Virus record (IMG/VR): IMGVR_UViG_3300021356_000055
Location: 1-38,910 of that record
Origin: a virus
Strand: one strand, 5' to 3'
DNA: 38,910 nucleotides
The first letter of the stretch is position 1. Every line of letters begins with the position of its first letter. Below the pieces are notes generated by a model, which had not been told where the DNA came from, ran no database searches, and saw nothing but the letters and a program-made list of their open reading frames with translations. The translations under genes and the position numbers were made by a program. This document shows positions 1 to 36,375 of the stretch, in pieces.

Positions 1-20
1 CCTCGCGGGGGGGCAGTGAT
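1..20. repeat. Terminal 20-bp direct repeat
   Basis: Bases 1-20 are identical to 38891-38910. This is the signature of a circular contig or a short terminal overlap left by assembly; the cut falls inside dispersed repeat copy R5, so it need not be a natural phage end. Confidence 0.9.
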
Positions 21-67
21 AGCCCCGCAGGGGATTTGGCGCAGGATTTGGGATTTGAACTGGGCAC

Positions 68-100
68 AAAAAAAGGGGCCGGACCCGAAGGCCCGACCCC
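68..100 (-). terminator. Rho-independent terminator after DUF932 gene
   Basis: On the minus strand an 11-bp GC-rich stem with a TTCG loop and two G-U pairs is followed by a run of seven T. It lies about 20 bases beyond the stop codon of the DUF932-like gene and just before the circular junction. Confidence 0.85.
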
Positions 101-120
101 GAAGGTCGATTTGTCAGGCG

Positions 121-1218
121 TTACAGCCCGTTGTCGATCCTGTACTGCGCCACTGCAGAGGTGGTCGCCGTTGCCAGTTCCAGTGACTGGTCAGTGCGAT
201 TCTTGGCGCTTCCCCCGAGTGACCCCTTGGCGTTGGCTTCCAAAGAGTTACCCCCGTGGTGAGAGGTGTACTCGGTCACTGCGTTGTGTACACGCCAGAC
301 AGTGTCCGCTCCGCCGTGGACCTCATTTCCCTTGCCCAGCCCGTCAGACGTCTCCTGCTCGGCGCTGTAGATCGCCATGACCTTGTCCAGCATGTTCTGT
401 GAGCGCTTGCAGTCGTCAGTCTTGTCCTTGGGAAGTTCAAAGACCTGTCGGATGTGCTCTTCAGCCATGTCCTTGGTGATCGTGGTTTCAGCCATGGCTT
501 TGAACTTGGCGATGTCGATCCGGAACTGCTGTTCCTGAACCTCCACAGCCTCGAACATGGCCTTGATGGCGGCGTCCTGTGAGACCGTGTGGCGCACCTT
601 CACAGCGCCCTGTGAGGCCTTCATTGCGACCTCCAGAGTATTGGAGCAGACGACCCGGACCTTGGTGGGCAGGTTCTGTGTGGAGTACCAGCCGTTGTGA
701 CTGGACACGGTGAGCAGGTGGTTCTGGACGGTGTCCCCGTCTTGCACCTCGGCAGAATCGCCAGACAGGAGCATAAATGGCACGGCGCCGTTGTGGATTT
801 GCCCGCAGGTGTCGATCCGCAGGTTCGGGAACTTGTCCAGCAGGGTCTGGCAGTGCTGGAACAGGTCAATGTTTGGCAGGGCTGTGTAGCGCTCAGACTT
901 GTGATCGCCCAGCCAGACGTACGTGTTCTGGCAGTCGTCAGTCGCAATCGGTGGCCTGTACACGCTGACGCCAGCAGGCTCAGAAAACTTGGCCGTCAGC
1001 GGCATGGGGGACACGCCGTTCTCAGGATCGCCCTGTACCATCTCTGGCGTCAGGCGTGGTGCCTGCTTGACGACGGTCTTGGGAAGCCAGTTCATGTGCG
1101 CCAGTTTAAGCGCATCAACGACGGTCAAACGCTGGTCCCCGGGAACAATGGTCCCGAGACCATGCCATGCGGTCTGGCGGCCTACAAAATGCTCGCCGTG
1201 TGCAAACTCGTGACTCAT
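121..1218 (-). CDS. DUF932 / phage-plasmid-like protein
   Basis: A 365-residue protein starting MSHEFAHGEHFVGRQTAWHG, which matches by eye the opening of the DUF932 family (phage/plasmid-like protein, TIGR03299 type), including the later region around NTYVWLGDHKSERY. The biochemical role of the family is not established; members occur in phages and plasmids and are often linked to DNA metabolism or anti-host functions. The reading frame is open up to 1368, but I chose the ATG at 1218 because the leader GATTGGAG sits 7 nt upstream, as in seven sister genes. The gene forms its own cassette: a promoter with TGTACA palindromes over its -35 and -10 lies upstream and a strong terminator follows at 68-100. 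No membrane segment or signal peptide is visible. Family call is fairly firm, function unknown. Confidence 0.8.
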   Translation of the reverse strand: MSHEFAHGEHFVGRQTAWHGLGTIVPGDQRLTVVDALKLAHMNWLPKTVVKQAPRLTPEMVQGDPENGVSPMPLTAKFSEPAGVSVYRPPIATDDCQNTYVWLGDHKSERYTALPNIDLFQHCQTLLDKFPNLRIDTCGQIHNGAVPFMLLSGDSAEVQDGDTVQNHLLTVSSHNGWYSTQNLPTKVRVVCSNTLEVAMKASQGAVKVRHTVSQDAAIKAMFEAVEVQEQQFRIDIAKFKAMAETTITKDMAEEHIRQVFELPKDKTDDCKRSQNMLDKVMAIYSAEQETSDGLGKGNEVHGGADTVWRVHNAVTEYTSHHGGNSLEANAKGSLGGSAKNRTDQSLELATATTSAVAQYRIDNGL

Positions 1219-1271
1219 GGAGAGTCTCCAATCTATTGAGGCAGGCCCACCATGGGCGCGCCGTTTCCTAG

Positions 1272-1299
1272 ATTGTACAGACTGGAGCCACCTTGTACA
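1272..1299 (-). promoter_or_regulatory. Sigma70-like promoter of the DUF932 cassette
   Basis: Read on the minus strand: TGTACA, 16-bp spacer, TACAAT. The -10 matches consensus at 5 of 6 positions and the -35 at 4 of 6. Both elements overlap TGTACA palindromes (1294-1299 and 1274-1279), so a protein binding these would occlude the promoter. This is weaker than the other cassette promoters. Confidence 0.5.
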
Positions 1300-1367
1300 G
1301 AGCAGTTTCGGCTTTTTTCTGTCCTGCCTGAGCCTGTACAAAAACATATATATGCCGGGCTTGTACA
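1274..1367. promoter_or_regulatory. Cluster of four TGTACA palindromes (candidate operators)
   Basis: TGTACA occurs at 1274-1279, 1294-1299, 1335-1340 and 1362-1367, at spacings of 20, 41 and 27 bp; the first two intervals are close to two and four helical turns. The two distal copies lie in a direct repeat (each near an ATATA tract followed by GTTTTTGTACA on the minus strand). Another copy sits in the spacer of the promoter at 2282-2310 and one at 38528-38533. Operator function is inferred from placement only. Confidence 0.45.
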
Positions 1368-1372
1368 AAAAC

Positions 1373-1460
1373 TTATATAGATATATAAAGGGCGGGGCAG
1401 GGCAGAGCCTCCGCTCGTGCGTGTGGGGGTGGAGCCTCGACCCCTTAAGTGATAGCCCCT
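1373..1460. repeat. Dispersed intergenic repeat, copy R1
   Basis: Member of a five-copy family found between cassettes. It has an AT-rich tract (TATATAGATATATAAA), a GC-rich middle and the hallmarks GGAGCCTC and TGATAGCCCC at the right end. This copy is diverged in the middle and has GAGCCTCCGC duplicated near 1405. It sits between the terminator at 1465-1502 and the DUF932 promoter. Confidence 0.7.
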
Positions 1461-1464
1461 AAGC

Positions 1465-1502
1465 AAAAAAAAGAGAGAGCCGACCCCGAAGGGCCGACTC
1501 TC
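1465..1502 (-). terminator. Rho-independent terminator
   Basis: Minus-strand 12-bp stem (GAGAGTCGGCCC, loop TTCG, with two G-U pairs) followed by TCTTTTTTTT. It directly follows the cysteine-rich gene ending at 1514. Confidence 0.88.
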
Positions 1503-1513
1503 CTGATTGGAGT

Positions 1514-2242
1514 CTATCGGAAGGCGGGACCATGCAAGGGATTAAAGATGTTCTTTGCCCCTTTACTAGGATCGCACAATAAACACTGCTCACACTGAAC
1601 CGGGTTATCGTACCCCTTTTGAGTTTGGGCTGTATTGGGGCACAAAATCTCGCTCTTGCGAGGCTCACAGTTTGCCGCTCTGAAATAGCGCCATTCGGGA
1701 TCTTCCGGGATATCGTAGTAACTTTCGACGCTGGCCATTAACCATTTACGCCAAATCCTGAACCGACCCTCGCGCCATTGATGGGTATATCCTACCGATC
1801 CCAAACCCGCTTCATCTAGCGCTTCCCAAATCGGCTCATGCGCTTTAAAGGGAACCGCAACCGGATCACCGAAAGCACCCAACCGGATCGACTTGCCCCA
1901 TGAAATAACCGTATCCCGGACTTCTTCGAATCCCGAAACCGGAAGGTTAACTGCGGAATTGTAAACCGCATTGATTCCCAAATCGTTAACGTAACAGGTG
2001 ACCGATCCCTTTCGCCGATCTCCATCTACGTCAAACCGTCCCTGATGGATACAGGTCCCACAAATAGACTCCGATAGTTCCTGAGACTTGCGAGAATCCG
2101 ACACCTTGCATCCGTGATCTGGGAGATACCACGTCTGAACCATGTTGCCCGTTTTGACATTGCGGGTATCCTTTGTCAAAACTCCGATGACGGGTAGCCC
2201 GTTAATCTCCGATGGCCCCCTGTAAAAAACCACGTGCCTCAT
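1514..2242 (-). CDS. Cysteine-rich conserved phage protein (DUF7227-like)
   Basis: A 242-residue protein. It resembles a conserved phage family of unknown function that I recall as DUF7227, on the basis of the SIRLGAFGDPVAVP, GSVGYTHQW and WRYFRA segments. Cysteines are grouped: CGTCIH then a CYVN near residues 60-85, and near the C-terminus LCPNTAQ followed by CEQCLLC. These could bind zinc or an iron-sulphur cluster, which is inference. The start is the ATG at 2242, 6 nt after GATTGGAG, not the longer in-frame start at 2281, which lies upstream of the leader hairpin. Single-gene cassette with its own promoter and terminator. Confidence 0.65.
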   Translation of the reverse strand: MRHVVFYRGPSEINGLPVIGVLTKDTRNVKTGNMVQTWYLPDHGCKVSDSRKSQELSESICGTCIHQGRFDVDGDRRKGSVTCYVNDLGINAVYNSAVNLPVSGFEEVRDTVISWGKSIRLGAFGDPVAVPFKAHEPIWEALDEAGLGSVGYTHQWREGRFRIWRKWLMASVESYYDIPEDPEWRYFRAANCEPRKSEILCPNTAQTQKGYDNPVQCEQCLLCDPSKGAKNIFNPLHGPAFR

Positions 2243-2257
2243 TCTGTACTCCAATCC

Positions 2258-2274
2258 GGTGGCCCCATGCCACC
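2258..2274 (-). promoter_or_regulatory. 5'-end mRNA leader hairpin (copy 1)
   Basis: Minus-strand GGTGGC-loop-GCCACC stem placed 6 bases after the -10 box, so it would begin at about the first transcribed base, and just before the GATTGGAG ribosome-binding site. The same element occurs at 3190-3208 and 4548-4566. Confidence 0.65.
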
Positions 2275-2281
2275 TAATCAA

Positions 2282-2310
2282 ATACTACTGTACAGAATAA
2301 AACCTTGCAA
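2282..2310 (-). promoter_or_regulatory. Sigma70-like promoter of the cysteine-rich gene
   Basis: Minus strand TTGCAA, 17-bp spacer, TAGTAT. A TGTACA palindrome (2289-2294, within CTGTACAG) lies in the spacer next to the -10, as at the DUF932 promoter. Spacing and position relative to the leader hairpin match two sister promoters. Confidence 0.72.
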
Positions 2311-2341
2311 CCCATTAACCTTGTTTTTTTTTGACGGTAAA

Positions 2342-2433
2342 AATCTATAAATAAACATATACATATTGCATAACCAGAGCGTCCAGCCAGAGCCGTGCGC
2401 GGGGGGGAGCCTCCGCTGGATATGATAGCCCCT
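2342..2433. repeat. Dispersed intergenic repeat, copy R2
   Basis: AT-rich tract with ATAAATAAACATATACATAT, then CCAGAGC, GGAGCCTCCGCTGGATATGA and TGATAGCCCC. The right half is almost identical to copy R3. It lies between terminator 2438-2470 and promoter 2282-2310. Confidence 0.75.
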
Positions 2434-2437
2434 CCTA

Positions 2438-2470
2438 AATAAAAAGAAGAGGCGGGCCTTTCGGCCCGCC
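2438..2470 (-). terminator. Rho-independent terminator
   Basis: Minus-strand GGCGGGCC-GAAA-GGCCCGCC perfect 8-bp stem followed by TCTTCTTTTTATTT, starting a few bases after the stop codon at 2477. Confidence 0.88.
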
Positions 2471-2476
2471 CCCTTG

Positions 2477-2704
2477 TTAGTTCCAACCGTCTTGGAGTTC
2501 AAGAATAACCTTGTCCATTTTTGCCAAAGCGTCTTTCTCCGCTCCAGCGACAACGTAGAATTCACTGCGGGAGACGCTTTCCCATCCATCTCTTATTGTT
2601 GTCACCAGTAGGGTGACTTTCCACATCGAGAGTCCTGCCGATCCAATCGGAACTGGCAGATCGGTTTTGTCTGCGAACCACTTTGCCTTTACCCTTTTCA
2701 CCAT
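2477..2704 (-). CDS. Small hypothetical protein, 75 aa
   Basis: Not recognised. Starts MVKRVKAKWFADKTDLPVPI and ends in ILELQDGWN; it looks like a small alternating beta/alpha protein with no membrane segment and no cysteine. The ATG at 2704 follows GATTGGAG by 6 nt; the longer frame to 2794 would run through the intercistronic hairpin and is unlikely. It is second in a two-gene cassette behind the 140-aa gene, separated by a TTCG hairpin. Confidence 0.65.
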   Translation of the reverse strand: MVKRVKAKWFADKTDLPVPIGSAGLSMWKVTLLVTTIRDGWESVSRSEFYVVAGAEKDALAKMDKVILELQDGWN

Positions 2705-2727
2705 TGTAATCTCCAATCCAAAAATGC

Positions 2728-2745
2728 GGGGGGCCGAAGCCCCCC
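2728..2745 (-). other. Intercistronic GC hairpin with TTCG loop
   Basis: Minus-strand GGGGGGC-TTCG-GCCCCCC followed by GCATTTTT and then GATTGGAG of the next gene. It could be a partial terminator or a processing/stability element that sets the ratio of the two genes. The same flanks (AAACCAAGGG ... CCCGCA) recur at 3403-3424, 4207-4226 and 37708-37726, so these hairpins share ancestry. Confidence 0.6.
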
Positions 2746-2751
2746 TTGGTT

Positions 2752-3174
2752 TTACTGCTTGTTGTCGTCGTGAACTTCTGGGTCGTTGAGCCACTTGCCC
2801 AACACTTTGCTTGCGGTCCTCTTGTCGATGTCAAACCGAACTTCAAGGTACTCACCTGCTCCAAGCATGTTGGTGACCCCGGACCTGCGAAGACCTCGCA
2901 AGTACTCGAACATCTCACGTTCTTCAAAGGTGTACTTGTCGGGACCGTGCTTAGTGTGAAGTTCCATTTTGGCAAAGTCCAAAAGTTCCTGACTTGCACC
3001 GTGGTCCTTGAGGTGCTTCAGGGTCCTGTACACTGCATTCTTTGCCTTGGGGAAGTATGCCAGAATCAACACCTTGGCGACTTCCTTGGTGGCACTGCTT
3101 CTGAAGCAGTTTTCTACATACCGGGTCATGCCATCCCAGTCGGGGGTGCAATCCACCGCGTTCTCTTCAGCCAT
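2752..3174 (-). CDS. Small phage protein with GVTNMLGA motif, 140 aa
   Basis: A mostly helical 140-residue protein of unknown function. Its C-terminal third, GVTNMLGAGEYLEVRFD followed by an acidic/basic helix ending LGKWLND, resembles a recurrent small domain I recall from marine phages (GVTNMFGA-type); no role is known. Start ATG at 3174, 6 nt after GATTGGAG; the frame continues to 3249 but that would pass through the promoter and hairpin. First gene of a two-gene cassette driven by the promoter at 3216-3244. Confidence 0.68.
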   Translation of the reverse strand: MAEENAVDCTPDWDGMTRYVENCFRSSATKEVAKVLILAYFPKAKNAVYRTLKHLKDHGASQELLDFAKMELHTKHGPDKYTFEEREMFEYLRGLRRSGVTNMLGAGEYLEVRFDIDKRTASKVLGKWLNDPEVHDDNKQ

Positions 3175-3189
3175 CGTAGGCTCCAATCT

Positions 3190-3208
3190 AGGTGGCCCCA
3201 TGCCACCT
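3190..3208 (-). promoter_or_regulatory. 5'-end mRNA leader hairpin (copy 2)
   Basis: AGGTGGC-ATGGG-GCCACCT on the minus strand, beginning 7 bases downstream of the -10 box at the predicted transcript start, and followed directly by AGATTGGAG. Confidence 0.68.
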
Positions 3209-3215
3209 ACACACA

Positions 3216-3244
3216 AGCCTAGCATAGTATTTTTGACATGCCAA
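3216..3244 (-). promoter_or_regulatory. Sigma70-like promoter
   Basis: Minus strand TTGGCA, 17-bp spacer, TAGGCT, then TGTGTGTAGG. The -10 and the bases after it are nearly identical to those of the promoter at 4574-4602, and similar to the one at 37744-37772. Confidence 0.72.
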
Positions 3245-3298
3245 CCCAATCTGGGTTTTTTTTCGTGCTATTTTTTTCAGGCCCCAGTCTACAAAAAA

Positions 3299-3390
3299 TA
3301 ATAGATATAGATACACAGCGACGACCAGAGCAGAGAGCGTTGGCCCGCGTGTGCGCGGAGCCTCCGCTGGATATGATAGCCCCTAATGAA
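3299..3390. repeat. Dispersed intergenic repeat, copy R3
   Basis: Contains AATAGATATAGATACACAGC, GACCAGAGCAGAGAGCGTT, GCGCGGAGCCTCCGC and TATGATAGCCCCTAATGAAA. It is nearly identical to copy R4 along its length apart from scattered substitutions. Confidence 0.8.
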
Positions 3391-3392
3391 AT

Positions 3393-3424
3393 AAAAAAAT
3401 GCGGGAGGGACCGAAGTCCCTCCC
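3393..3424 (-). terminator. Rho-independent terminator
   Basis: Minus-strand GGGAGGGAC-TTCG-GTCCCTCCC stem (9 bp) followed by GCATTTTTTTATTT, just beyond the stop codon of the gene at 3432. Confidence 0.9.
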
Positions 3425-3431
3425 TTGGTTG

Positions 3432-3770
3432 TTACTTCGTGAACCGTCCCACAAACTCGATCTGAGGAGGGTCGTAGAACTTGGTGTTGAGGATATCACA
3501 CTCCTCAGCGACCTTGGGATCTCCTCCTTCGATCTTCTTGCTTGCTTGGATAGGCGAGTACAGTCCCGCCTTTGCAACGTGGGGAGTCCAAGAGGACTCA
3601 GAAGGAACCTGATTTGGTCCCATGTAGTAAAGCACCAAGAAGGGTGCTTCTTCAGAGAACGTGCCAAAAGCGATGTGCTTGTGGCTCAGAGTACGGACGA
3701 TCCGTACAACCTCAAAAGGTCGCTGATTTCGTTCAGCGGAAACGCCACTAGGGGAAAGCGAGTCACTCAT
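3432..3770 (-). CDS. Small hypothetical protein, 112 aa
   Basis: Not recognised. Residues 1-20 are Ser/Pro-rich and probably flexible; the rest has mixed beta/alpha character with the segment APFLVLYYMGPNQ and ends IEFVGRFTK. No cysteines or membrane helix. I chose the ATG at 3770 because GATTGGAG precedes it by 6 nt; a second ATG 4 codons upstream would place the ribosome-binding site inside the gene. Single-gene cassette with promoter 3793-3821 and terminator 3393-3424. Confidence 0.66.
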   Translation of the reverse strand: MSDSLSPSGVSAERNQRPFEVVRIVRTLSHKHIAFGTFSEEAPFLVLYYMGPNQVPSESSWTPHVAKAGLYSPIQASKKIEGGDPKVAEECDILNTKFYDPPQIEFVGRFTK

Positions 3771-3792
3771 AGTGACCTCCAATCTGCTGTCG

Positions 3793-3821
3793 ATTAAAAG
3801 GTATGGAGAAACCTATGTCAA
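3793..3821 (-). promoter_or_regulatory. Sigma70-like promoter
   Basis: Minus strand TTGACA (consensus), 17-bp spacer, TTTAAT. The predicted start gives a leader of under 20 bases beginning near AGATTGGAG, with no leader hairpin. The sequence around the -35 (ATTGGGGTTGACATAGG) is shared with 4574-4602 and the region from the -35 into the spacer with 38424-38452. Confidence 0.78.
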
Positions 3822-3923
3822 CCCCAATATTTGGCCAGTATTCGGCTATTTTCGGCATTCTAGAAAAAAGTTTGTCAGGACTGCCAGCGGAACCCGTAGT
3901 TCTGTGGGGTCGTCTACAGAGAT

Positions 3924-4013
3924 CAATAGATATAGATATACAGCGAGGACCAGAGCAGAGAGCGTTCGCCCGTGTGTGCGCGGAGCCTCCGCAGAAAATG
4001 ATAGCCCCTAATG
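3924..4013. repeat. Dispersed intergenic repeat, copy R4
   Basis: CAATAGATATAGATATACAG, GACCAGAGCAGAGAGCGTT, GTGTGTGCGCGGAGCCTCCG and ATGATAGCCCCTAATG. Closest relative is R3. Located between terminator 4014-4046 and promoter 3793-3821. Confidence 0.8.
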
Positions 4014-4046
4014 AAATAAAAGAAGAGGCGGGCCTTTCGACCCGCC
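4014..4046 (-). terminator. Rho-independent terminator
   Basis: Minus-strand GGCGGG-TCGAAAGG-CCCGCC stem followed by TCTTCTTTTATTTC, nine bases after the stop codon of the 42-aa membrane protein gene. Confidence 0.87.
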
Positions 4047-4054
4047 CCTTGGTT

Positions 4055-4183
4055 TTACTTGAAGAAGATGGTCCAGATGATGAGTGCTGGCCACATCAAG
4101 ATGAACCCTAAGGTCATCACAACGTGAAGAGTCATGCCCTTCGGCACTTTCCCTTCGTTTACTTCACGCTCCCAGTCTTTCAT
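4055..4183 (-). CDS. 42-aa single-pass membrane protein
   Basis: Starts MKDWEREVNEGKVPKGMT and continues into one hydrophobic helix (about residues 18-41, containing VMTLGFILMWPALIIWTIFF) ending in Lys. A charged N-terminal part outside the membrane and a single C-terminal helix is all that can be seen; no family was recognised. The ATG at 4183 follows GATTGGAG by 5 nt, which decides against the longer frame starting at 4240. It is the second gene of the first cassette. An early inner-membrane protein could act in host takeover or superinfection exclusion, but this is speculation. Confidence 0.68.
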   Translation of the reverse strand: MKDWEREVNEGKVPKGMTLHVVMTLGFILMWPALIIWTIFFK

Positions 4184-4206
4184 GCTTCCTCCAATCGGAA
4201 AGTTGC

Positions 4207-4226
4207 GGGAGGGCCGAAGCCCTCCC
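4207..4226 (-). other. Intercistronic GC hairpin with TTCG loop
   Basis: Minus-strand GGGAGGGC-TTCG-GCCCTCCC (8 bp). It lacks a T-run, so it is more likely an mRNA stability or processing element than a terminator. Sits between the coiled-coil gene and the small membrane protein gene. Confidence 0.6.
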
Positions 4227-4236
4227 TTGGTTTTGT

Positions 4237-4533
4237 TCAACTGATCTGCTTGAGCAGTTTGCTGATCTGCTCTTCGATCCTAGCCCGTCTCCCGTGCCCG
4301 CCAGTGGTCTTCAGTCTTGCATCGTGTTCCAGCAAACGAGCGGTTTTCATGAGCGTGTCAGCGATCCCGTGCAGGTTTTCGGCGACCTCCACAAAACGAT
4401 CCACACCATCCTCCTCGATGTCCCGAACGGCATCCTCCAACTCGTGAACTGCAACGGTGTGCAATTCTTGACTCTTGTCCCACGCAACCTTTACCGCTTT
4501 CTTTCGTGCGGCATTCAACTCTTGAAGAGTCAT
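4237..4533 (-). CDS. Small coiled-coil protein, 98 aa
   Basis: Not recognised. The sequence is almost entirely helical and charged, with heptad-like spacing through the central section (HELEDAVRDIEEDGVDRFVE) and a basic Gly-rich stretch (TTGGHGRRAR) before a last amphipathic helix, EEQISKLLKQIS. This suggests an oligomeric coiled coil. Start ATG at 4533 lies 5 nt after GATTGGAG. It is the first leftward gene from the divergent control region, so probably among the first genes expressed. Confidence 0.68.
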   Translation of the reverse strand: MTLQELNAARKKAVKVAWDKSQELHTVAVHELEDAVRDIEEDGVDRFVEVAENLHGIADTLMKTARLLEHDARLKTTGGHGRRARIEEQISKLLKQIS

Positions 4534-4547
4534 GTTGACTCCAATCT

Positions 4548-4566
4548 AGGTGACCCCATGCCACCT
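4548..4566 (-). promoter_or_regulatory. 5'-end mRNA leader hairpin (copy 3)
   Basis: Minus-strand AGGTGGC-ATGGG-GTCACCT. Compared with copy 2 one arm has changed C to T, turning a G-C pair into a G-U pair, so the stem is kept. It begins 7 bases after the -10 box. Confidence 0.68.
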
Positions 4567-4573
4567 ACACACA

Positions 4574-4602
4574 AGGCTACACTGTGCTCTTTTTTATGTC
4601 AA
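4574..4602 (-). promoter_or_regulatory. Sigma70-like promoter, first leftward cassette
   Basis: Minus strand TTGACA (consensus), 17-bp spacer, TAGCCT, then TGTGTGTAGG and the leader hairpin. Confidence 0.78.
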
Positions 4603-4936
4603 CCCCAATATCGATTTTATTTTGTACTGCTTTTCGACACTCGCAAGGCTCGGATCGACCCGAGGGCAGGGGTGGGTCGAACATATAGATCCGCCAGAGA
4701 GACCCCCGAGGCCCCCCAAAGGGCGCGCTTCCCAGATCAAAGGTCTCCTTGCAAAAAAAATAAAAACCCTATTGCAGTGGTGGTGTATTCGTGTAAGAAC
4801 CCGGTAGGTTAACCTTGTATATCGTTTGTTTGCACCGACGAGTACAAAGGCCCTGCCTCGCGGCCCCGTTCAGGGATAACTGCAAACCCAGAGTTTGGTG
4901 CAGTTTTCTTAATCTTTGAACGAAAAGGAGTCTGCT
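4603..4936. other. Divergent non-coding control region
   Basis: No convincing gene is seen between the leftward promoter and the capsid gene. The region holds a partial relative of the dispersed repeat (near 4681-4720: CATATAGATCCGCCAGAGAG followed by GC-rich sequence), an A-rich tract at about 4750-4770, and a bulged stem near 4880-4905 (CTGCAAAC ... GTTTGGTGCAG) followed by TTTTCTT just ahead of the capsid ribosome-binding site. No good TTGACA/TATAAT pair was found for the rightward strand, so the late promoter may depend on an activator. Confidence 0.5.
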
Positions 4937-6088
4937 ATGGCAGGCGGTACCTATGGACAGTCAGGCACTGTCAACTGGCCGATTACTGGCGAACTCGAAA
5001 CAGGCGTCAATGAGCACGGCTATGTACGTTTTCTAGCGCAAAAGTTTGTCGATACTCTTTACATGAAGGCAATGCAAACCGAGTCTGACTTGGAGCGTTT
5101 GCTGTCTCGTGAGGAAATCGACGGCAACCCCATGCTGATCGACGCTCTGAAGCCTCTTCCCTCTCCTGAAAATGACGAGTTGACGAAAGATCGCGCTCGT
5201 TTTGGAGATTTGACTGCTAAGGTCATCCCGACTGAACAGCGTCAGATGCTTCCGTCTTTCTACGATTACATGTTCTACGTTGATCCTCGGGATATTCCGG
5301 CGATGAATCGTAAACTCGACCCTACGGGTCAAATGCTGACCTCTGTTTTGGGTGCTTTTAACATCCAGAAGGACAAGGCCATCCTGACGGCTCTTGACGC
5401 AGAGGTCACCGTTCACGATGCCGGAGACCTTCAGCAAGCCGGAGGAGCAGTCACCTACCTTAATGATGGTGGCTCTGACATTGGCGTTGATTTTGGCGCA
5501 GGTTTCTACAACGGTACTACGGAACTTTACCGGACGCCTTTGACTGAGGCCGCCGCTGGTGACGTTGTGATCGGGCTTGGTTTGACCATCAAAAAGTTGA
5601 TTGAGGCTCGCAAGCAGTTGCACCTCAACAACGCCATGAACAGCGGTCAGCGCCCAATGCTTGTTATTCACCCGACTCAGTTGCACCAGTTGCTGGCTAA
5701 CTCTGAGCAGGTGACTAACGCTGACTACAACGCTGTTAAGCCTTTGGTAACGGGTGAGATTTCCCAGTTCCTTGGCATGGACGTTGTGACCAGCAACCAT
5801 GTCACTGTTGCAGAGAGTTTGAGTGGCAACATTGCAGGTGGAACGGGTTCTGGCGAGACTGAAGACGAAGTGGTCCAAAATGGTCACTACGCTTACGTCA
5901 TCATGCCAAATAGCCTTTACTACGGTTGCTCTGGGGTGGACACGAAGACGGACATTCTTCCTGAAAAAGGACACACTATGCAGGTTGCATCTTACATGCA
6001 CTGCGGAGCGGTTCGCTTGGACGGCAAAAAGATTGTTCGCATTGAGTGTTCTGACTCTGACACGGCGACGGTCGTTGACGGCGCTTGA
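4937..6088 (+). CDS. Major capsid protein
   Basis: A 383-residue protein identified as a HK97-fold major capsid protein of the podovirus type. Recognisable parts are TYGQSGTVNWPITGELE at the N-terminus, the E-rich helical spine (TESDLERLLSREEIDGNPM), the central NIQKDKAILTALDAEVT, and a late domain with LVIHPTQLHQLLANSEQ, GEISQFLGMDVVTSNHV and YAYVIMPNSLYYG. The start is the ATG at 4937 with AAGGAG 6 nt upstream; the frame continues to a TTG at 4916 that would swallow the ribosome-binding site. It opens the late rightward operon and its stop overlaps the next start (TTGA). Its expected partners, portal and scaffold, are encoded on the opposite strand about 24-26 kb away. Confidence 0.85.
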   Translation: MAGGTYGQSGTVNWPITGELETGVNEHGYVRFLAQKFVDTLYMKAMQTESDLERLLSREEIDGNPMLIDALKPLPSPENDELTKDRARFGDLTAKVIPTEQRQMLPSFYDYMFYVDPRDIPAMNRKLDPTGQMLTSVLGAFNIQKDKAILTALDAEVTVHDAGDLQQAGGAVTYLNDGGSDIGVDFGAGFYNGTTELYRTPLTEAAAGDVVIGLGLTIKKLIEARKQLHLNNAMNSGQRPMLVIHPTQLHQLLANSEQVTNADYNAVKPLVTGEISQFLGMDVVTSNHVTVAESLSGNIAGGTGSGETEDEVVQNGHYAYVIMPNSLYYGCSGVDTKTDILPEKGHTMQVASYMHCGAVRLDGKKIVRIECSDSDTATVVDGA

Positions 6089-6534
6089 TCTTGAGCGGCG
6101 GTAAGACAACGTACTTAGCCCAGCAGTTTTTGAAGTCGTTGCAGGGGAACCCCGTAGCGACATTCACGGAAACATGGGTCACGTTGTTTACCACACCGCC
6201 CACCTCGGACACTTTGTCTGGGATTGCGGCGGCGGTTGAGTGGTCCCCGGACGTAGCCCGAATAAGGGTTAATGCTCCGGGGGCCTCTGAGCCACATTGG
6301 ATCTCTACCCCTGAGCAGACTGACGAAGGCGCACAACTGTATGTTCAAGGCCCGATACAGTGGGCGGACATTGCAGGATTGTCTGAAACAGTAACTGTGA
6401 AAGCGGTGGGGATTTTTTCAGCAAGTTCAGGGGGGCAACTTCTGTACTGGCAAAACTTGTCAAAGGACAGATCCGTAAGCAATGGCGATACAATGCTGTT
6501 TCCGACCGGATCGCTAAAAGTTACGGAAAAATGA
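6085..6534 (+). CDS. Small beta-rich structural protein (tail-fibre/decoration-like)
   Basis: A 149-residue protein. The pattern TWVTLFTTPPTSD near the N-terminus, IQWADIAGL in the middle and VGIFSASSGGQLLYW, then VSNGDTMLFPTGSLKV at the end follows a common small phage structural family (typically LALFTSDPT ... AIFDA.TGG.LL ... V.AGDT...P.G.L), variously annotated as tail fibre or head-decoration protein. Beta-sandwich fold is expected. Start is a TTG overlapping the capsid stop; a second TTG at 6091 is equally possible, as neither has a strong ribosome-binding site. Position after the capsid favours a capsid-decorating role. No signal or membrane segment. Confidence 0.65.
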   Translation: MILSGGKTTYLAQQFLKSLQGNPVATFTETWVTLFTTPPTSDTLSGIAAAVEWSPDVARIRVNAPGASEPHWISTPEQTDEGAQLYVQGPIQWADIAGLSETVTVKAVGIFSASSGGQLLYWQNLSKDRSVSNGDTMLFPTGSLKVTEK

Positions 6535-7253
6535 ACATGAGTGGTTCTGGAATGGGCGACAAGATGGACTTGGTTCATACGCCAGCGAAAGACGCTTCCC
6601 CGAATAAGGTCGGTGTCTACGGCTGGTTTGACATCAAGCATACTTGCGCAGAAACAGGAAAAGTGACCGATTTCAGCGGTCCTAATGCGATCACCCGAGA
6701 TGGCTTGGGCGCTCTTTGCTCCGGCCTTCATCCGGGGACGACAGGCTTCCCTGCCGCAACTGCCGCTAACACGGTATGCGGGATTTTGCTAACAGGAACA
6801 GGCACCGATTTTTCTCCCGGGGCAGATGTCGGTACAGGTACTTACGCGGCGCTGGCTCCCGGCACTACGGGTGACGTCATCGCACCGTTTACAAACACTG
6901 CGTTGGGTAACGGCACGACGAGCAACCCGGACACCTCTACAAGCATGTACTTCAAGTCGAGCGGTGGAAGTAGCCCGGGCAACGACCCTGTGGACATCTT
7001 TGACTCTGCATCCACAGACGCTGATCCGATGGTCACTTCGATTGCCACGATTACTGTCAAAAACTTGGGCACTACCCAAAGGACCGTTAATGGAATCTTT
7101 GTGGCTGATTGTCATGGCACTGCTGGCGCTACGATCAAGTTGCTGGCAGGAAGGGTTACAAGTGGCTCCGGCACCGCGGCGATGACCGAAGTGGTGATGA
7201 ACCAAAACGACACCTTGGCGATTGATTACTCGATTAGCGTAAACGCTACCTGA
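6531..7253 (+). CDS. Hypothetical structural protein, 240 aa
   Basis: Gly/Thr/Ser/Ala-rich, low in charge and probably all-beta. The N-terminal part has WFDIKHTCAETGKV and NAITRDGLGALCSG, and the C-terminal part has ITVKNLGTTQRTVNGIFVAD and NQNDTLAIDYSISVNAT, a layout seen in phage head-fibre or tail-adaptor proteins that share the AGD/NQNDTL...DYSI end. I do not recognise a named family. It starts with an ATGA overlap with the preceding gene, so it is translationally coupled, and is followed by a terminator-like hairpin, which closes the capsid sub-operon. Confidence 0.6.
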   Translation: MNMSGSGMGDKMDLVHTPAKDASPNKVGVYGWFDIKHTCAETGKVTDFSGPNAITRDGLGALCSGLHPGTTGFPAATAANTVCGILLTGTGTDFSPGADVGTGTYAALAPGTTGDVIAPFTNTALGNGTTSNPDTSTSMYFKSSGGSSPGNDPVDIFDSASTDADPMVTSIATITVKNLGTTQRTVNGIFVADCHGTAGATIKLLAGRVTSGSGTAAMTEVVMNQNDTLAIDYSISVNAT

Positions 7254-7269
7254 TCTTGGCCTTTCTTTA

Positions 7270-7317
7270 GGGGGGAAGCGGGTTTGTGCGGGTCTCCGCT
7301 CCCCCCGTTTTAGTGAG
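7270..7317 (+). terminator. Hairpin terminator/attenuator inside the late operon
   Basis: GGGGGGAAGCGG ... CCGCTCCCCCC (11-bp stem with one bulged A), loop of about 14 bases, then GTTTTAG. It separates the capsid group from the tail group and no separate promoter is seen after it, so partial read-through would lower tail gene expression relative to capsid. Confidence 0.7.
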
Positions 7318-7323
7318 GTTCTA

Positions 7324-8430
7324 ATGCCGTCAAGATCCATCGAAGTTACTTTTAATGGTGATGAAGCCTCTCAGACAGAAGGCGTTCCCGTCTCTATAGG
7401 TCTTGAAGGGCCAGTGACACTAGGGCGTTGCCGGGTCAAGAAATCGTCTTCAGCCGGGACGTGCTTGTTGAACTTTGATTGTTCAGGAAGCATGAACAGC
7501 AAGTATCTGTCTTTGGGCGATGGGGCGTTCAACATAGACCCGCAAAACGTGGCTTCTGTCTACTCGAATAACGGAGACCTTGACGAGATCCCGAACTCAT
7601 ATACGGGTGATTTAATGACTGCCGCTACAGGGGAAGAGCCGACGTTTGGCACCTCTGGTCAAAACATAACAAGCAAACCTGTAATCCAAATCGGATCCAC
7701 TTCAAAACTTAAGTACACTTCTAACGCTCCAGAGTTTGCATCAGGGGAGCCGTTTACGATTTTTGTTGTTGTTGACGAAGCAGATAACCAGTCCTTTAGG
7801 CCCGTTCTGGGGTCTGCAAACACAAGTGGATTTTTTACGAGTTCAACGTGGTACGGAAACAATAACAGCCGAAAAGTTTACGTCAGAAACGATGCTGGAA
7901 CTGCTTTAACGTCTTCTGGTTCTGATGCTTTTCAAGACTCAGACATTCGGGTTTTAAGAAGAGACTCTAGCAACAATGTCACAGAGTACAGGCGTGGAGT
8001 GCAGACTATTAGCGGGTCTCTCAGCGGAGACTTCAAGTTTCCTAACCTTGGCTGGACTGCCAACCAAGTGATGGGCAGTACTGCGACATACATCTTTAAC
8101 GGTCTAAAAGTCTCCCGTGTCATTATATGCGATGAGTATTTTGACGATGATGCAAGAGAATATGTCGAAGCATGGCTGGCTTGGGAGTACGGTTTGCAAA
8201 CATTAACCAACTCTTACTTGCCTAGTTCACACGTTGGATATCAAGTTAATCCAAGGGGAACAATCACGAAGTCTTTTTCCTCTGACTTTGACCTCAGCGG
8301 TTTAAGTGCAAATACATACAGTAGCCTTGTACAGCCTAGCATTAGCACTATATCTGGCCCGATTACATTCACATTGGAAAAAGTTCATAAAATCGGATAT
8401 ATCACTGTCGAAGTCAATGTGAGTTACTGA
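7324..8430 (+). CDS. Concanavalin A/LamG-like lectin-domain protein
   Basis: 368 residues. Residues from about 50 to 300 follow the phage LamG/concanavalin A-like pattern: LMTAATGEEPTFG, a beta-rich core with FTIFVVVDEADNQS, and the typical end YIFNGLKVSRVIICDE, then REYVEAWLAWEYGLQ and LPSSHVGY, equivalent to the usual ...VEGYLAWKWGL...LP..HPY motif. Such domains bind glycans in phage tail fibres or spikes, so a host-recognition role is likely. A Ser/Thr-rich C-terminal tail (about residues 310-368) with SGPITFTLEKV may form a further beta domain. ATG at 7324 follows GAGG weakly. Ends with a TGATGG overlap with the adhesin/tail-tube fusion gene. Confidence 0.7.
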   Translation: MPSRSIEVTFNGDEASQTEGVPVSIGLEGPVTLGRCRVKKSSSAGTCLLNFDCSGSMNSKYLSLGDGAFNIDPQNVASVYSNNGDLDEIPNSYTGDLMTAATGEEPTFGTSGQNITSKPVIQIGSTSKLKYTSNAPEFASGEPFTIFVVVDEADNQSFRPVLGSANTSGFFTSSTWYGNNNSRKVYVRNDAGTALTSSGSDAFQDSDIRVLRRDSSNNVTEYRRGVQTISGSLSGDFKFPNLGWTANQVMGSTATYIFNGLKVSRVIICDEYFDDDAREYVEAWLAWEYGLQTLTNSYLPSSHVGYQVNPRGTITKSFSSDFDLSGLSANTYSSLVQPSISTISGPITFTLEKVHKIGYITVEVNVSY

Positions 8431-14972: not shown

Positions 14973-17900
14973 ATGCCTTACATCAACATTGGTTTTCAAA
15001 AAACACAGTTGCCAACTCCCAAGGGTTACATTGACCCCATGGAGAAGGTTCGCGACCTTGAGGCAGACGAAAGAAGCGCAAACCTACTGAAGATGGCAGG
15101 CGCTATTACAGGCGCTGTTGTCAAAGGCAAGGTCAACGAACACATGCAGGTAGAGCAGGCGCAGTTTAAGGGCGCCGTCTCTCAGATTGAAAACCAGATG
15201 AAAAGCATGGACAGCACTCAGTTGTCCCAGATTGCAGATGGGGATTTTGCGTCTATCGGTCAGTTTATGGGAGACTTATCCCCGCTAAACACACGCAAGT
15301 TAGAATCCATGTTGCCGACCTATGCGCAATCGGTAAAAACAGGCAGAACTCAAGCCATAAGCATGGAACTGCGAGACCGTGCTGAGAAAAAGCAAGTTGA
15401 ACAGTTTTGGGCAAACAACCCTGACTCCTTAGAATCTTTTAAAGAAAACATTCTGTCTGGGGCTGAACCGGAATCTTTTGAAGATATGGTTCCCAAAGGA
15501 ATGGATCGAGACAGGTTTTTATCTGCCAGCCTTGATTTTCTTACAGAGGGAGAAAAGGCGCTGGAGGCTCGACGCCCTTCGGCTCAAGCAAACTTCTTTG
15601 CCTCTCTAAAAGCAGAGCAACTTCGATCTGCCACCCCTAAAATGTTTGAAGAGCATTTGGTTGGCAAAGGCTTTACTAAGCAAGAAGCCAGAAATATGGC
15701 AAACCAAGTTCCCTTGAATGCTTTTAATGTCGACCGAAACGCCGCATATAACGGTCGAGTCAAAAACCAAGCCAATACAAAGTTGGGTATTGCTTATGCG
15801 AACTCTGAGTCTCTTAGGGTAAAAGCGTTTAGTGCGCCAAATCTTGAAGAGGCTATGAAGGTCATGGACGGTGCTGTTGGTATTTGGGACAACTTGGTGA
15901 ACGAACTGATTGAAGCGGGCGCTCCTCAAGACGTTATAAGGCAGGCAAAAGATACTAGAGATAACCACGCAAAAAATGTTATCCCGGAATCTAGAACCGC
16001 CGTTAAAAGGTCTTTTTCTAAAGACGAGGCATCTCGTAGGGCTTTTGTAGAGATCCAAAACGGCGAGTATGACGAGTTTCTTTCAGGGGTGGGGCTAAAA
16101 GAAGGCCTTCAGGCCGCTATGGAAAGCGACTCATTAAGGGGCACCCCCGCTAAAGACCGAGGCGATATCGAACGGCAACTTGCCCGTCGATTCGATGAAC
16201 TGCAAAGGCAAGATTTTGAAAGAAAAACTAACGAAGAAGAACAGAAGGCTGAAGAAGCCCTTCAAGCCTACATTCAAACCTTAAGTGACCCGACCTCAAC
16301 AGAAGTTGCCATTGTTGAAGATGTCGAAGAGGTGGGTGCGCTTTTTGCACCTAGCACTTTTGACCAAGTAAGTGCCGTTGCTCAAGACTACATGGGAGTT
16401 ATTGGCAAACGAATGGCAGATGGTTTCAAAACCTATGCTGAAAACCTTGACCCCGAAGATTTCGCCAGCGAAGACTATTTTATTAAACTCAACAATACCC
16501 TAAGTATTCTTGATCCAGAAAACCAAAACGAGTTAGTTTTGGCTTTGGATGGCGTTGCGCAGAAGAAGGTAAAGCAACTAACTGATCGAGTTATTTCTTT
16601 TAACATGAATCAAGACCCTCGTCAGTCTTTGGCGTACTTAAGTTCAATTGTGGCAAACCCGGATGTGCCCAAAAGCCTTAGGGATGATGCCCAAGAGGCT
16701 GTTAACATTTTGACGGCTGTAGATAATGCATTGTCCACAGGGACTTTTGGCAAAAACGCGAATGACCATTTAATGGGTCCTAACGGCATGTTCAACATGG
16801 ACATGATTGTGGACAGAATGGCTAATCTTTACGGCCAATATGGCCAAGAAGGATTAGACCGTTTTATTACGCCAGAATCCGCACAGTTTCTTGTTCAATC
16901 CCCAGAGTTTATGGACCGTTACGTTCAAAACATGCTGAGAAAGAGCGACAAGATAGCGAGAAAGTCAGGGACGCTAACAGACAAAGAACAGGGCTTGTTG
17001 CACTTGTACAATCGCATTGACACTGCTGTCCAAAACATGAAGTACACGCCAGTGTTTTCCAAGGAGAGCAACGGAAGTGTCTACAAAAATATCAGGCTGT
17101 ATCTGGGAACTTCTTTGCGGTTGCAATCAGGTTCGATTGCGCCGGGTCAAGACTCGCTCGTTAACGAGCGACTTGTTAAGTCGGTGACAGGTTTTTCGGA
17201 GGACCTTGAAACAGCGGATGTTTTAGACGCTCTTCAGGAAGCAAACGAAAAGGCCACAATTGCAACGGCGACCCCAGAAGCCCTTGCCAGAGCAATGACA
17301 AGCCTTCTTAAAGAAGAAGCCGCAGAAAGACTTCCTGAAGGAATCGCAGGCAAAGAATCAGTTGAGGCAACTATACTTAACTCTTTGACTGAGAGTTTCA
17401 AAAGATTTTACGATTACGGGGCTTCTGCGGGTGAAATCGAAGCCTTTTCCCTTGAGATGCAACAGGTGCTGATTGGCCCTGCTACTACTGCTCAAGGTCA
17501 GGATGCCCTCAGGACATTAGAAAGCAATGGCTTTAATGGCTCTCTTGAATCTGCTTTCAAGCAAACGTTGCGAAACGAGATGTTTACTTATAGTGATGTT
17601 GAAGAAGGATCGTATCAGATTCAGCAAACAGAGATAAGGGAGATTGACGGCAAGAAGTACTTTGTCTTTGGCTTTACGTTTACAGACAAAGAGGGGCAAA
17701 CTGTCCACTTAACTGTGCCGAAGAATGCGCCCGACAATTACTTTTTAGAAAGAGGTGTTTCGGAGTTGGGGGACAGAAGCGTTGCCCCAGATCAAGCCTC
17801 CGATCAAGCGCCAAAAAGCACAAACACCTACGCTCCGTTAAACGCGGGGATAAGAACCGACATTCAGAATCAGTTAAATGTTGGGCCGATTCTAAAAGAC

Positions 17901-18605
17901 CTTGGGTACACCGATCTTCAGCAAGACATGCTTCGTACGTTTATCAATGACAACGGCAGGCAAATCTACAACATGTCAGTCATTGACACAGACGGTAACC
18001 CTGAGTTTGAGCAACTAGGCTATGGCCCTGATACTTTCCACGAGTTTTGGGACGCTGTTCCGGGGCAAAATCGAGGCAGTGCTTTTATGTACCGATACAA
18101 AAACATGGGGAACCTTGAAAATGACACGCTTCAAGGAGCCTTCTGGAACTCTTTTTCTGAATCAAAAACAGGCGTCACTTACAAAGAACTGAATGCTTTG
18201 GCCAATAGTGTTCTTCAAAGAGCAGAAGTGGTTTCTGTAGCAGAGATCAACAATGAACTAGACGTAGCCGGGCAATCTGGATTTGCCGCTGGTGCCACTC
18301 TTGGCGGTGTTATATCAGGCAGTATGTCTGGCGGAACTCTGTCCGTTCCCGGCATCGCTGGCGGAGGTGCGCTGGGAGTGGCCATGACCTCTAGCGCTTA
18401 CAATGCATACTTAAACGCTACTAATCAAGGTGTTGGAGGCAAGGCCCACCATGAGAACTCTGGCATTACAAGTTATGACCTGACTTTTGCGCTTCTTGTT
18501 CAACGCCAGTTGGGTAGCCAAGAAAAAACAATCAATGCTGAAGAGCGGGTTCTTTTGTCAAACGCTCGAAAAATCATTAACGAAGTCTTGAGGAGCAATC
18601 AGTAA
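14973..18605 (+). CDS. Large internal virion protein (gp15-like position)
   Basis: 1210 residues, almost entirely helical, acidic/Gln-rich, without recognisable catalytic motifs. It opens MPYINIGFQKTQLPTPKGYI, a form seen in phage internal virion proteins. Near the C-terminus a Gly/Ser-rich hydrophobic stretch (about 1100-1145, GFAAGATLGGVISGSMSGGT) could insert in a membrane. Position between gp14-like and gp16-like genes suggests it is the gp15-type ejection tube protein; T7 gp15 is 747 residues, so this is much longer. Two bases separate it from the previous stop, and its stop overlaps the next ATG (TAATG). Confidence 0.65.
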   Translation: MPYINIGFQKTQLPTPKGYIDPMEKVRDLEADERSANLLKMAGAITGAVVKGKVNEHMQVEQAQFKGAVSQIENQMKSMDSTQLSQIADGDFASIGQFMGDLSPLNTRKLESMLPTYAQSVKTGRTQAISMELRDRAEKKQVEQFWANNPDSLESFKENILSGAEPESFEDMVPKGMDRDRFLSASLDFLTEGEKALEARRPSAQANFFASLKAEQLRSATPKMFEEHLVGKGFTKQEARNMANQVPLNAFNVDRNAAYNGRVKNQANTKLGIAYANSESLRVKAFSAPNLEEAMKVMDGAVGIWDNLVNELIEAGAPQDVIRQAKDTRDNHAKNVIPESRTAVKRSFSKDEASRRAFVEIQNGEYDEFLSGVGLKEGLQAAMESDSLRGTPAKDRGDIERQLARRFDELQRQDFERKTNEEEQKAEEALQAYIQTLSDPTSTEVAIVEDVEEVGALFAPSTFDQVSAVAQDYMGVIGKRMADGFKTYAENLDPEDFASEDYFIKLNNTLSILDPENQNELVLALDGVAQKKVKQLTDRVISFNMNQDPRQSLAYLSSIVANPDVPKSLRDDAQEAVNILTAVDNALSTGTFGKNANDHLMGPNGMFNMDMIVDRMANLYGQYGQEGLDRFITPESAQFLVQSPEFMDRYVQNMLRKSDKIARKSGTLTDKEQGLLHLYNRIDTAVQNMKYTPVFSKESNGSVYKNIRLYLGTSLRLQSGSIAPGQDSLVNERLVKSVTGFSEDLETADVLDALQEANEKATIATATPEALARAMTSLLKEEAAERLPEGIAGKESVEATILNSLTESFKRFYDYGASAGEIEAFSLEMQQVLIGPATTAQGQDALRTLESNGFNGSLESAFKQTLRNEMFTYSDVEEGSYQIQQTEIREIDGKKYFVFGFTFTDKEGQTVHLTVPKNAPDNYFLERGVSELGDRSVAPDQASDQAPKSTNTYAPLNAGIRTDIQNQLNVGPILKDLGYTDLQQDMLRTFINDNGRQIYNMSVIDTDGNPEFEQLGYGPDTFHEFWDAVPGQNRGSAFMYRYKNMGNLENDTLQGAFWNSFSESKTGVTYKELNALANSVLQRAEVVSVAEINNELDVAGQSGFAAGATLGGVISGSMSGGTLSVPGIAGGGALGVAMTSSAYNAYLNATNQGVGGKAHHENSGITSYDLTFALLVQRQLGSQEKTINAEERVLLSNARKIINEVLRSNQ

Positions 18606-35793: not shown

Positions 35794-36375
35794 CTACTCC
35801 TCCAGATCTGTTCGGTAAAAGTATCCCTCTGAAAATCCCTGTTTGTATCCAATCCTTCGGCCCCGCTCATACATATCAGCGTTAATGTCGCCGATCTCGC
35901 TCATGTTGGACCATTCGTAGTAGCCGTCTTTTAGGACAAGCCACCACATGAGGACTGCATTGTTTTTCTTGGCCACCTTTTCAGCCATGCGCCAGCCGAT
36001 CTTGCTGTCGTCCGCAATGATTACTGGACGGTGTGGCTGGGCCTCGATTTCACGTTGGACCTGTTCAGGCGAAGTCACCCAGTCCATGAAGATCAGTGAG
36101 TACACCGCTTCACTCACCCCGGTGTCCTCACCCATGCCGTGGCTGATCGTGACCGTCTTGTCCCGCTTCTTAAGTTCGACATCGACCTCCAGTACAAACC
36201 CGTCCACCTTTTCCAAGGCGCTGAACACCTGAGCCTGCGACTCGTCATCGATATCGATCCCCAAGTCGGCGTCCACAACGTGCCTGAACAGGACAAACCC
36301 AAAGTGCTTCTCGAAGTTCTCGGATTCGCTGTACAGGCGAACGAACTCGTTAAAGGTGTGGCGTTGGCTTATCAA
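35794..36375 (-). CDS. Hypothetical protein, 193 aa
   Basis: Not recognised. Starts at a TTG overlapping the preceding stop (TTGA). An N-terminal helical section (NEFVRLYSESENFEKHFGFV) is followed by an acidic beta-rich domain with DADLGIDIDDES, VDGFVLEVDVELKKRDKTVT and a central HRPVIIADDSKIGWRMAEKV that looks like a Rossmann-type strand-helix unit. Ends ERGRRIGYKQGFSEGYFY. It sits between a DNA-binding protein and the primase, so a regulatory or replication role is possible. Confidence 0.6.
   Translation of the reverse strand: MISQRHTFNEFVRLYSESENFEKHFGFVLFRHVVDADLGIDIDDESQAQVFSALEKVDGFVLEVDVELKKRDKTVTISHGMGEDTGVSEAVYSLIFMDWVTSPEQVQREIEAQPHRPVIIADDSKIGWRMAEKVAKKNNAVLMWWLVLKDGYYEWSNMSEIGDINADMYERGRRIGYKQGFSEGYFYRTDLEE

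Follow-up and report, generated by a model that had tools for sequence, protein, structure and literature searches.

The 38,910-base virus record IMGVR_UViG_3300021356_000055, analyzed over its full length and here called the window, carries an array of five leftward units that runs from position 4602 to position 1 and on across the circular junction. Each unit has a promoter-like site with a −35-like box and a ribosome site, GATTGGAG, ahead of either one gene or two, and behind the coding part a strong hairpin terminator and a composite repeat; we refer to the shared parts as the chassis and to the genes as cargo. Given the recurrence of this anatomy within the genome, and given a close relative in which the architecture and an 11-base element behind the terminators (AGGGGCTATCA) are kept while the cargo and the number of units differ, we propose that these are insulated early units whose chassis repeats let genes be gained and lost in a podovirus-like genome, much as the promoter-early stem-loops (PeSLs) of T4-type phages are proposed to do. 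We place the probability of this sequence-based reading at about 0.6.

Anatomy of the Array

Units 1 and 3 contain two genes each and units 2, 4, and 5 a single gene. All five units claimed in the original prediction are present with their terminators in register, as is the sixth promoter–gene unit that it placed beyond them (promoter-like site at 38452, gene at 37794–38399), to which we add a seventh promoter-like site at 37772; the last two sites lack such a terminator and lead into the replication genes. The start of unit 3 had been set at 3310 and needs correction, as the promoter begins at 3244. The array forms the head of a leftward block that includes the replication genes, and the start of this strand adjoins the capsid gene. 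The promoter-like sites are the following:

4574–4602, minus strand, unit 1, TTGACA-N17-TAGCCT
3793–3821, minus strand, unit 2, TTGACA-N17-TTTAAT, of the same class as unit 6
3216–3244, minus strand, unit 3, TTGGCA-N17-TAGGCT
2282–2310, minus strand, unit 4, TTGCAA-N17-TAGTAT
1272–1299, minus strand, unit 5, TGTACA-N16-TACAAT
38424–38452, minus strand, unit 6, followed by the gene at 37794–38399
37744–37772, minus strand, unit 7, followed by a terminator-family hairpin (4 T) and the gene at 37427–37690

Four of the five genome matches to TTG[AG]CA-N17-[TG]ANNNT fall at units 1, 3, 6, and 7 (mean 1.1 and largest count 5 in 100 shuffles); the pattern was built after the units had been seen and thus describes them rather than testing them independently. 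The boxes of units 2, 4, and 5 are variants, and unit 5 alone is in register among the sites of a sigma-70 scan of positions 1–5000.

Each of the five units is closed by a predicted terminator:

4023–4050, minus strand, terminator hairpin of unit 1
3403–3424, minus strand, terminator hairpin of unit 2, CTTCGG type, 7 T
2447–2474, minus strand, terminator hairpin of unit 3
1474–1503, minus strand, terminator hairpin of unit 4
75–100, minus strand, terminator hairpin of unit 5

Both strands of positions 1–5000 together contain 17 terminator-like sites, compared with 5.2 ± 1.9 across 50 shuffled sequences. A home-made genome-wide scan ranks the five array terminators highest on the minus strand (scores 16–21, next 14) and gives three plus-strand readings of the array hairpins a score of 18.

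The 11-base element AGGGGCTATCA lies behind all five terminators, with unit 5 keeping 10 of its 11 bases (GGGGCTATCA). The copies of this 10-base core are as follows:

3999–4008, minus strand, GGGGCTATCA copy 1, unit 1
3374–3383, minus strand, GGGGCTATCA copy 2, unit 2
2423–2432, minus strand, GGGGCTATCA copy 3, unit 3
1450–1459, minus strand, GGGGCTATCA copy 4, unit 4
17–26, minus strand, GGGGCTATCA copy 5, unit 5

At most one mismatch allowed, GGGGCTATCA occurs seven times in the window where 1.6 copies are expected, a count reached in none of 100 shuffles; its five exact copies are confined to the sites behind the five array terminators, and exact copies also stand behind both array terminators of the relative. 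The core follows the hairpin by 15–20 nt, and in the units that encode a DUF932 protein by 49 nt in the window and 52 nt in the relative, a spacing that suggests that the last unit is the same in both phages. In an alignment of four window and two relative units AGGGGCTATCA is invariant and more conserved than the rest of the block. An intergenic repeat behind each terminator had been predicted and is indeed there, although GGGGCTATCA within it had not been singled out. Further components common to the window units are a GGAGGCTCC block and a TATATCTATAT tail, in place of which the relative carries TCTCTCTC tails. Two tails are described here:

3905–3990, minus strand, tail of unit 1, consisting of GGAGGCTCC, a GC-rich stretch, and TATATCTATATC
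3280–3365, minus strand, tail of unit 2, GC-rich with TATATC

The chassis modules are mosaic among the units. By pairwise alignment, the leaders of units 1, 3, and 4 form one class (80–90% identical) and those of units 2 and 6 another (67%), whereas the terminators of units 1 and 3 pair together (91% identical) and the tails of units 1 and 2 do so (84% over 75 nt, other tail pairs 57–72%).

Comparison with a Related Phage

The only close relative found is IMGVR_UViG_3300023271_000005, two pieces of which are designated L010 and L011; its TerL, capsid, and connector proteins are 70%, 59%, and 73% identical to those of the window, and scans with the capsid, with capsid and terminase alignments, and with DUF932 yielded none close beyond this one. 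Its array comprises two terminated units, one with two genes and one with DUF932, and two further promoter-like sites, where the window has five units. When 34 window proteins were compared with the relative's pieces by tblastn at 1e-3, leaving aside the relative's bases 20,001–21,553, 20 had a match, but these included just one of the nine array and early proteins (DUF932) and 19 of the 25 others (Fisher p 0.001). The difference persists for genes longer than 112 aa (1/4 of array and early genes, 17/20 of the others, p 0.035). Because the chassis plan and the 11-mer are kept and eight of nine array and early genes lack a detectable homologue, we conclude that the chassis stays while the cargo changes. 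The original prediction had anticipated such an outcome from alignment with relatives, and in this one relative the cargo does differ, the architecture and the 11-mer stay, and the units fall from five to two; its expectation of a constant leader and repeat fails at the level of leader and tail sequences, which are not conserved.

The same comparison can be explained by repeats that are only regulatory, with cargo differing through fast divergence or ordinary illegitimate recombination and the chassis taking no part in exchange. Strong divergence also marks early and replication genes that lie beyond the array (primase-like, 33%; 35794–36375, 30%; 36372–36893 and 36886–37422, unmatched) and, with one relative to compare, we see no direct breakpoint at any chassis repeat. 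We nevertheless regard a purely regulatory role as rather unlikely, given the change in unit number from five to two, the mosaic of chassis parts, the absence of any trace in the relative of the 140-, 201-, and 242-aa array and early genes when 17 of 20 other genes above 112 aa match, and the probably different sources of the two DUF932 copies.

DUF932 and the Other Cargo

The genes of the units, together with the gene that borders the array, are listed here:

4237–4533, minus strand, unit 1 gene a, 98 aa, no confident family
4055–4183, minus strand, unit 1 gene b, 42 aa, C-terminal half hydrophobic (by eye)
3432–3770, minus strand, unit 2 gene, 112 aa, no family
2752–3174, minus strand, unit 3 gene a, 140 aa, all-helical in a single-sequence model (mean pLDDT 65)
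2477–2704, minus strand, unit 3 gene b, 75 aa, no family
1514–2242, minus strand, unit 4 gene, 242 aa, PHROG 2554 (8e-35)
121–1218, minus strand, unit 5 gene, 365 aa, DUF932 (PF06067, 6e-36; PHROG 1221)
37794–38399, minus strand, unit 6 gene, 201 aa, PHROG 3754
immediately right of the array, capsid gene, Pfam Phage_capsid_2

The DUF932 copies of the two phages are 27–31% identical. A 31-row tree, which has long branches, groups the window copy with those of loci L123 and L150 (96/94) and the relative's copy with that of L143 (98/83), and a sister relationship of the two is weakly rejected (p-AU 0.037); we consider that they are probably not sisters and come from different sources. A first tree of 81 rows did not place the window copy firmly, and a phmmer comparison of the window copy with 80 loci ranks the relative's DUF932 first (114 bits, next 93), which speaks against separate sources. 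These 80 loci were retained from 138 relatives in a DUF932 alignment scan, the known relative included; a scan with the single protein found no relatives. In their 898,900 bases the motif has five matches (three for a reversed-motif control), four of which form two overlapping pairs in the relative, while the fifth, in L177, has no evident terminator before it. This scarcity indicates that the chassis and DUF932 do not move together.

Among the other cargo, homologues of the unit 4 gene (242 aa) occur in 148 phage records from many hosts and those of the unit 6 gene (201 aa) in three; the 140-aa gene of unit 3 has no homologue at E 0.1. Neither the 242-aa nor the 201-aa protein has a credible match among solved structures, and a single-sequence model of the latter failed (mean pLDDT 33). 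The 201-aa protein does contain, by eye, a Cys and His/Asn pattern that we take to be papain-like. In a PADLOC search, the nine array and early proteins gave three weak and unconvincing matches (E 0.015–0.03). A part of the 140-aa protein (51–56 alignment columns) resembles uncharacterized phage proteins of 57–111 aa (Foldseek probability 1.0, E 0.18–0.31, 29–39% identity).

Leaders and Internal Hairpins

The eight minus-strand copies of GATTGGAG all lie directly before start codons (38415, 4546, 4196, 3784, 3188, 2718, 2256, and 1233), and the plus strand of the whole genome contains two. In units 1, 3, 4, and 5 a predicted leader hairpin follows directly behind the −10 box and ranks within the strongest 0.5–1.8% of 34-nt windows:

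4547–4567, minus strand, leader hairpin of unit 1, 8 pairs, loop ATGGG, at the predicted 5' end of the RNA, followed by GATTGGAG at 4546–4539
3189–3209, minus strand, leader hairpin of unit 3, 8 pairs, loop ATGGG
2258–2274, minus strand, leader hairpin of unit 4, 17 nt identical to that of unit 3
1240–1262, minus strand, leader hairpin of unit 5, followed by GATTGGAG at 1233

In the relative, hairpins lie behind all four folded intergenic early promoter-like sites (L011 2594 and 1555, L010 10467 and 9627; 1.9, 9.8, 0.8, and 0.07%, respectively); a further promoter-pattern match lies at L010 10786. The stem sequences differ between the two phages. The loop AYGG is frequent, with 15 such hairpins in the sequence searched versus six expected by shuffling, and is therefore suggestive only. 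Also in the relative, a 13-pair hairpin with loop ATGG on the minus strand of L011 (2177–2148) separates the first unit's two genes and echoes the leader loops. An upstream reading frame starting from the leader loop was considered and rejected, as frame and stop vary among units by eye.

Three further hairpins of the terminator family have short T runs and precede genes:

4207–4226, minus strand, within unit 1, 3 T only, followed by GATTGGAG at 4196; listed on the plus strand by the scan of positions 1–5000
2728–2745, minus strand, within unit 3, 5 T, followed by GATTGGAG at 2718
37708–37726, minus strand, before the unit 7 gene, 4 T; listed on the plus strand by the genome-wide scan

These short-T hairpins may be attenuators or the scars of fused units.

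The Post-Terminator Element

Our guess is that AGGGGCTATCA is a DNA-level element that aids termination or insulation. An alternative view takes the post-terminator block to be primarily a DNA site, used in packaging, in replication, or by a DNA-binding protein, around which the cassettes accumulated. It would account for an element that is more conserved than its block and sits beyond the expected RNA end, and for the ends of both contigs, which lie inside the block on the DUF932 side. The exact copies in the window are nonetheless confined to the array terminators (the relative has two elsewhere), contig ends in GC-rich repeats can be technical, and to our knowledge the block includes no recognizable packaging or origin motif; we consider a primary DNA site improbable. 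The contig ends themselves (window 1–20 and 38891–38910; relative L011 1–143 and the last 143 bases of L010, which overlap over 143 bases with seven mismatches) may reflect either a technical break at the GC-rich repeat or a packaged genome end.

We considered that the block might hold a small RNA or an antisense promoter and rejected this: positions 1–5000 contain one plus-strand promoter-like site, in unit 2, and the relative's TCTCTC tails contain none by eye. Rfam gave no match at the gathering threshold.

A related sequence, TTAGGGGCTATCA, occurs behind a hairpin terminator in six IMG/VR contigs of an unrelated phage family (L023–L027 and L033), which were found by searching for that same terminator–motif pattern. 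All 13 bases are kept in the six contigs, whose members are only about 70% alike. In L024, the sole annotated contig, which encodes a DnaB-like helicase, a primase, and a sigma factor, the motif lies between the endolysin and replication genes. Window proteins match these contigs weakly (E 0.007 over 26 residues at best, 0.24 or higher otherwise). Adding GGCTCC to the pattern retrieves three contigs, all in the L024 family, and adding CTTCGG retrieves five, four of them in that family and the fifth L092, in a coding-like context. A whole-block model lists four of the six L024-family loci at 12.2–20.7 bits (three at 17.7–20.7) and four of eight chance loci at 11.9–15.4; with chance loci scoring this close, a common origin is not shown, and a shared host factor or chance may explain the motif as well. 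In bacterial genomes the pattern T6-N0-28-TTAGGGGCTATCA has 55 matches where about 54 are expected by our own arithmetic; their contexts look unrelated, and we judged them to be chance. That AGGGGCTATCA and its GC-rich neighbor constitute a dedicated, spreading cassette-boundary element, namely a site of recombination or insulation to which a factor of the phage or its host responds, which delimits exchangeable early units and is also present behind a hairpin terminator in the L024 family, is an idea that we hold to be doubtful.

Genome Context

The window has 20 identical bases at both ends, which marks the record as circular or terminally redundant, with unit 5 crossing the join. PHROGs families in the window include terminase, head–tail connector, RecE-like exonuclease, Erf-like annealing protein, endonuclease VII/HNH-type, primase-like, and helix–turn–helix (HTH) proteins, the last represented by a regulator-like protein encoded at 36372–36893. 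The connector belongs to PHROG 332, which we take to be podovirus-type, and from the gene families we infer a podovirus-like genome. No T4-type family was named among the PHROG matches of the scanned window open reading frames (ORFs) of this 38.9-kb record, and positions 1–8000 have no DNA match among annotated phages. Flanking gene content differs between the window and the one relative. A 1210-aa late gene at 14973–18605 has no tblastn match in the relative's pieces, and its neighbors match.

Weighing the Proposal

Several observations count against insulated, exchangeable early units. The transcription units are predicted from sequence. The −10 boxes are weak and mostly non-consensus (TAGCCT, TAGGCT), and the sigma-70 scan of positions 1–5000 finds no promoter excess (two sites, 2.5 expected), so that the case for the promoters comes from position and repetition; the promoter predicted for each unit stands on that footing, and consensus boxes or a scan excess do not accompany it. 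Units 2 and 6 lack a leader hairpin (19–21% of windows fold as well); unit 7 has a weaker one placed further along (3.4%), and the hairpin of the DUF932 unit in the relative does not stand out (9.8%). Nothing in the relative matches a model built from three window leaders, and GATTGGAG is absent from the relative's pieces searched. The comparison draws on one relative, and small genes are hard to match (at or below 112 aa, 0/5 for cargo and 2/5 for others). Two more exact copies of GGGGCTATCA in the relative, at 9824 and 37042, lie away from array terminators. With a held-out model of the window block, the two sites in the relative are recovered weakly (15.6 bits with E 0.0018 and 9.4 bits with E 0.15), the 11-mer contributing most of the signal; two loci of an unrelated phage family reach similar scores (15.0 and 13.3 bits). 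Lastly, cargo GC is not foreign (0.47–0.59 in nine array and early genes, 0.46–0.55 in twelve others).

The GC content bears equally on whether the cargo genes are classical morons, which would be expressed from a prophage and benefit the host. A moron is a gene with its own promoter and terminator that is absent from relatives. The cargo resembles this in having its own promoter-like sites and terminators and in being mostly absent from the relative, and the HTH regulator-like protein at 36372–36893 would fit a prophage. Yet no integrase family was found among the 29 genuine window ORFs compared with PHROGs, a set that does not include every ORF, and here a series of units on one chassis heads a leftward block holding replication genes. 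The original description as moron-like is thus apt for the sequence-level promoter and terminator and unsupported in the prophage sense, which we judge very improbable.

Relation to Known Systems

PeSLs were reportedly described by Arbiol et al. in 2010 and Comeau et al. in 2014. Recombination between PeSL copies is reportedly marked by breakpoints and mini-circles; in the window array we see a mosaic of modules and no breakpoint or circle. Papers that cite this work present PeSLs as promoter-plus-stem-loop cassettes that mediate shuffling in T4-type phages (PMC4503421, PMC3950731). By those accounts the likeness lies in the many small intergenic composites of a sigma-70-like promoter and a hairpin, the promoters here being recognized by position and repetition, and in cargo that changes around the cassettes, seen here against one relative and in PeSL regions as intense shuffling. 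The window phage differs in having a 38.9-kb podovirus-like genome rather than that of a T4-type myovirus, and its chassis adds a leader hairpin in most units, an invariant 11-base element, a GC-rich block, and an alternating tail. We posit that the array works like PeSLs in the features compared without being a member of the T4-type set.

In the haloarchaeal tailed virus HGTV-1, a TATA-box-like motif and an inverted repeat precede most genes of one side, and a role in regulation and shuffling has been proposed (PMC3950731). The likeness is the repeated promoter-like motif with an inverted repeat before genes; the virus is archaeal, and the cited passage mentions neither a terminator nor a post-terminator block. 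With these precedents, as far as the cited accounts go, a tandem series on a repeated chassis is less unusual than it was originally said to be. In Cluster K mycobacteriophages, a short conserved sequence (SAS/ESAS), associated with inverted repeats in about half of cases, precedes many gene families and is kept among subclusters (PMC3203893). According to that account SAS is located at translation starts, whereas the invariant element of the window follows terminators, of which every array unit has one; GATTGGAG does lie at starts but is absent from the relative's pieces.

No description of this array was found in open-licence literature, and searches of paper text for the motif strings returned matches that, among those listed, look unrelated by title; a search on the reshuffling of early regions returned no papers. 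The cassette idea is known; the chassis and the genome type are a new variant of it, and the 11-base element is newly noted here.

Model and Implications

We hypothesize that host RNA polymerase would start at each sigma-70-like promoter soon after infection and that a strong hairpin terminator would close each unit, with the short-T terminator-family hairpins between paired genes passing part of transcription. A 5'-terminal hairpin on most transcripts would slow their decay; hairpins at RNA 5' ends are reported to hinder decay in Escherichia coli and Bacillus subtilis (PMC3997798). The recurrence of promoter, leader, terminator, and post-terminator repeat means that recombination of the Erf/RecE type can in principle join at chassis parts, and would add, delete, fuse, or replace single cargo genes with their neighbors undisturbed. 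The encoded Erf-like and RecE-like proteins could drive this exchange, and an Erf/Exo pair matched the efficiency of Red in recombining DNA of 78% identity (PMC3945230).

If this proposal is true, chassis that hold cargo as separately expressed, exchangeable genes would account for the way in which compact phages acquire and shed genes for takeover and counter-defence, as the cargo may be, with operons intact. The chassis could then mark such genes for discovery without homology, and the conserved element behind the terminators is a concrete, testable puzzle.

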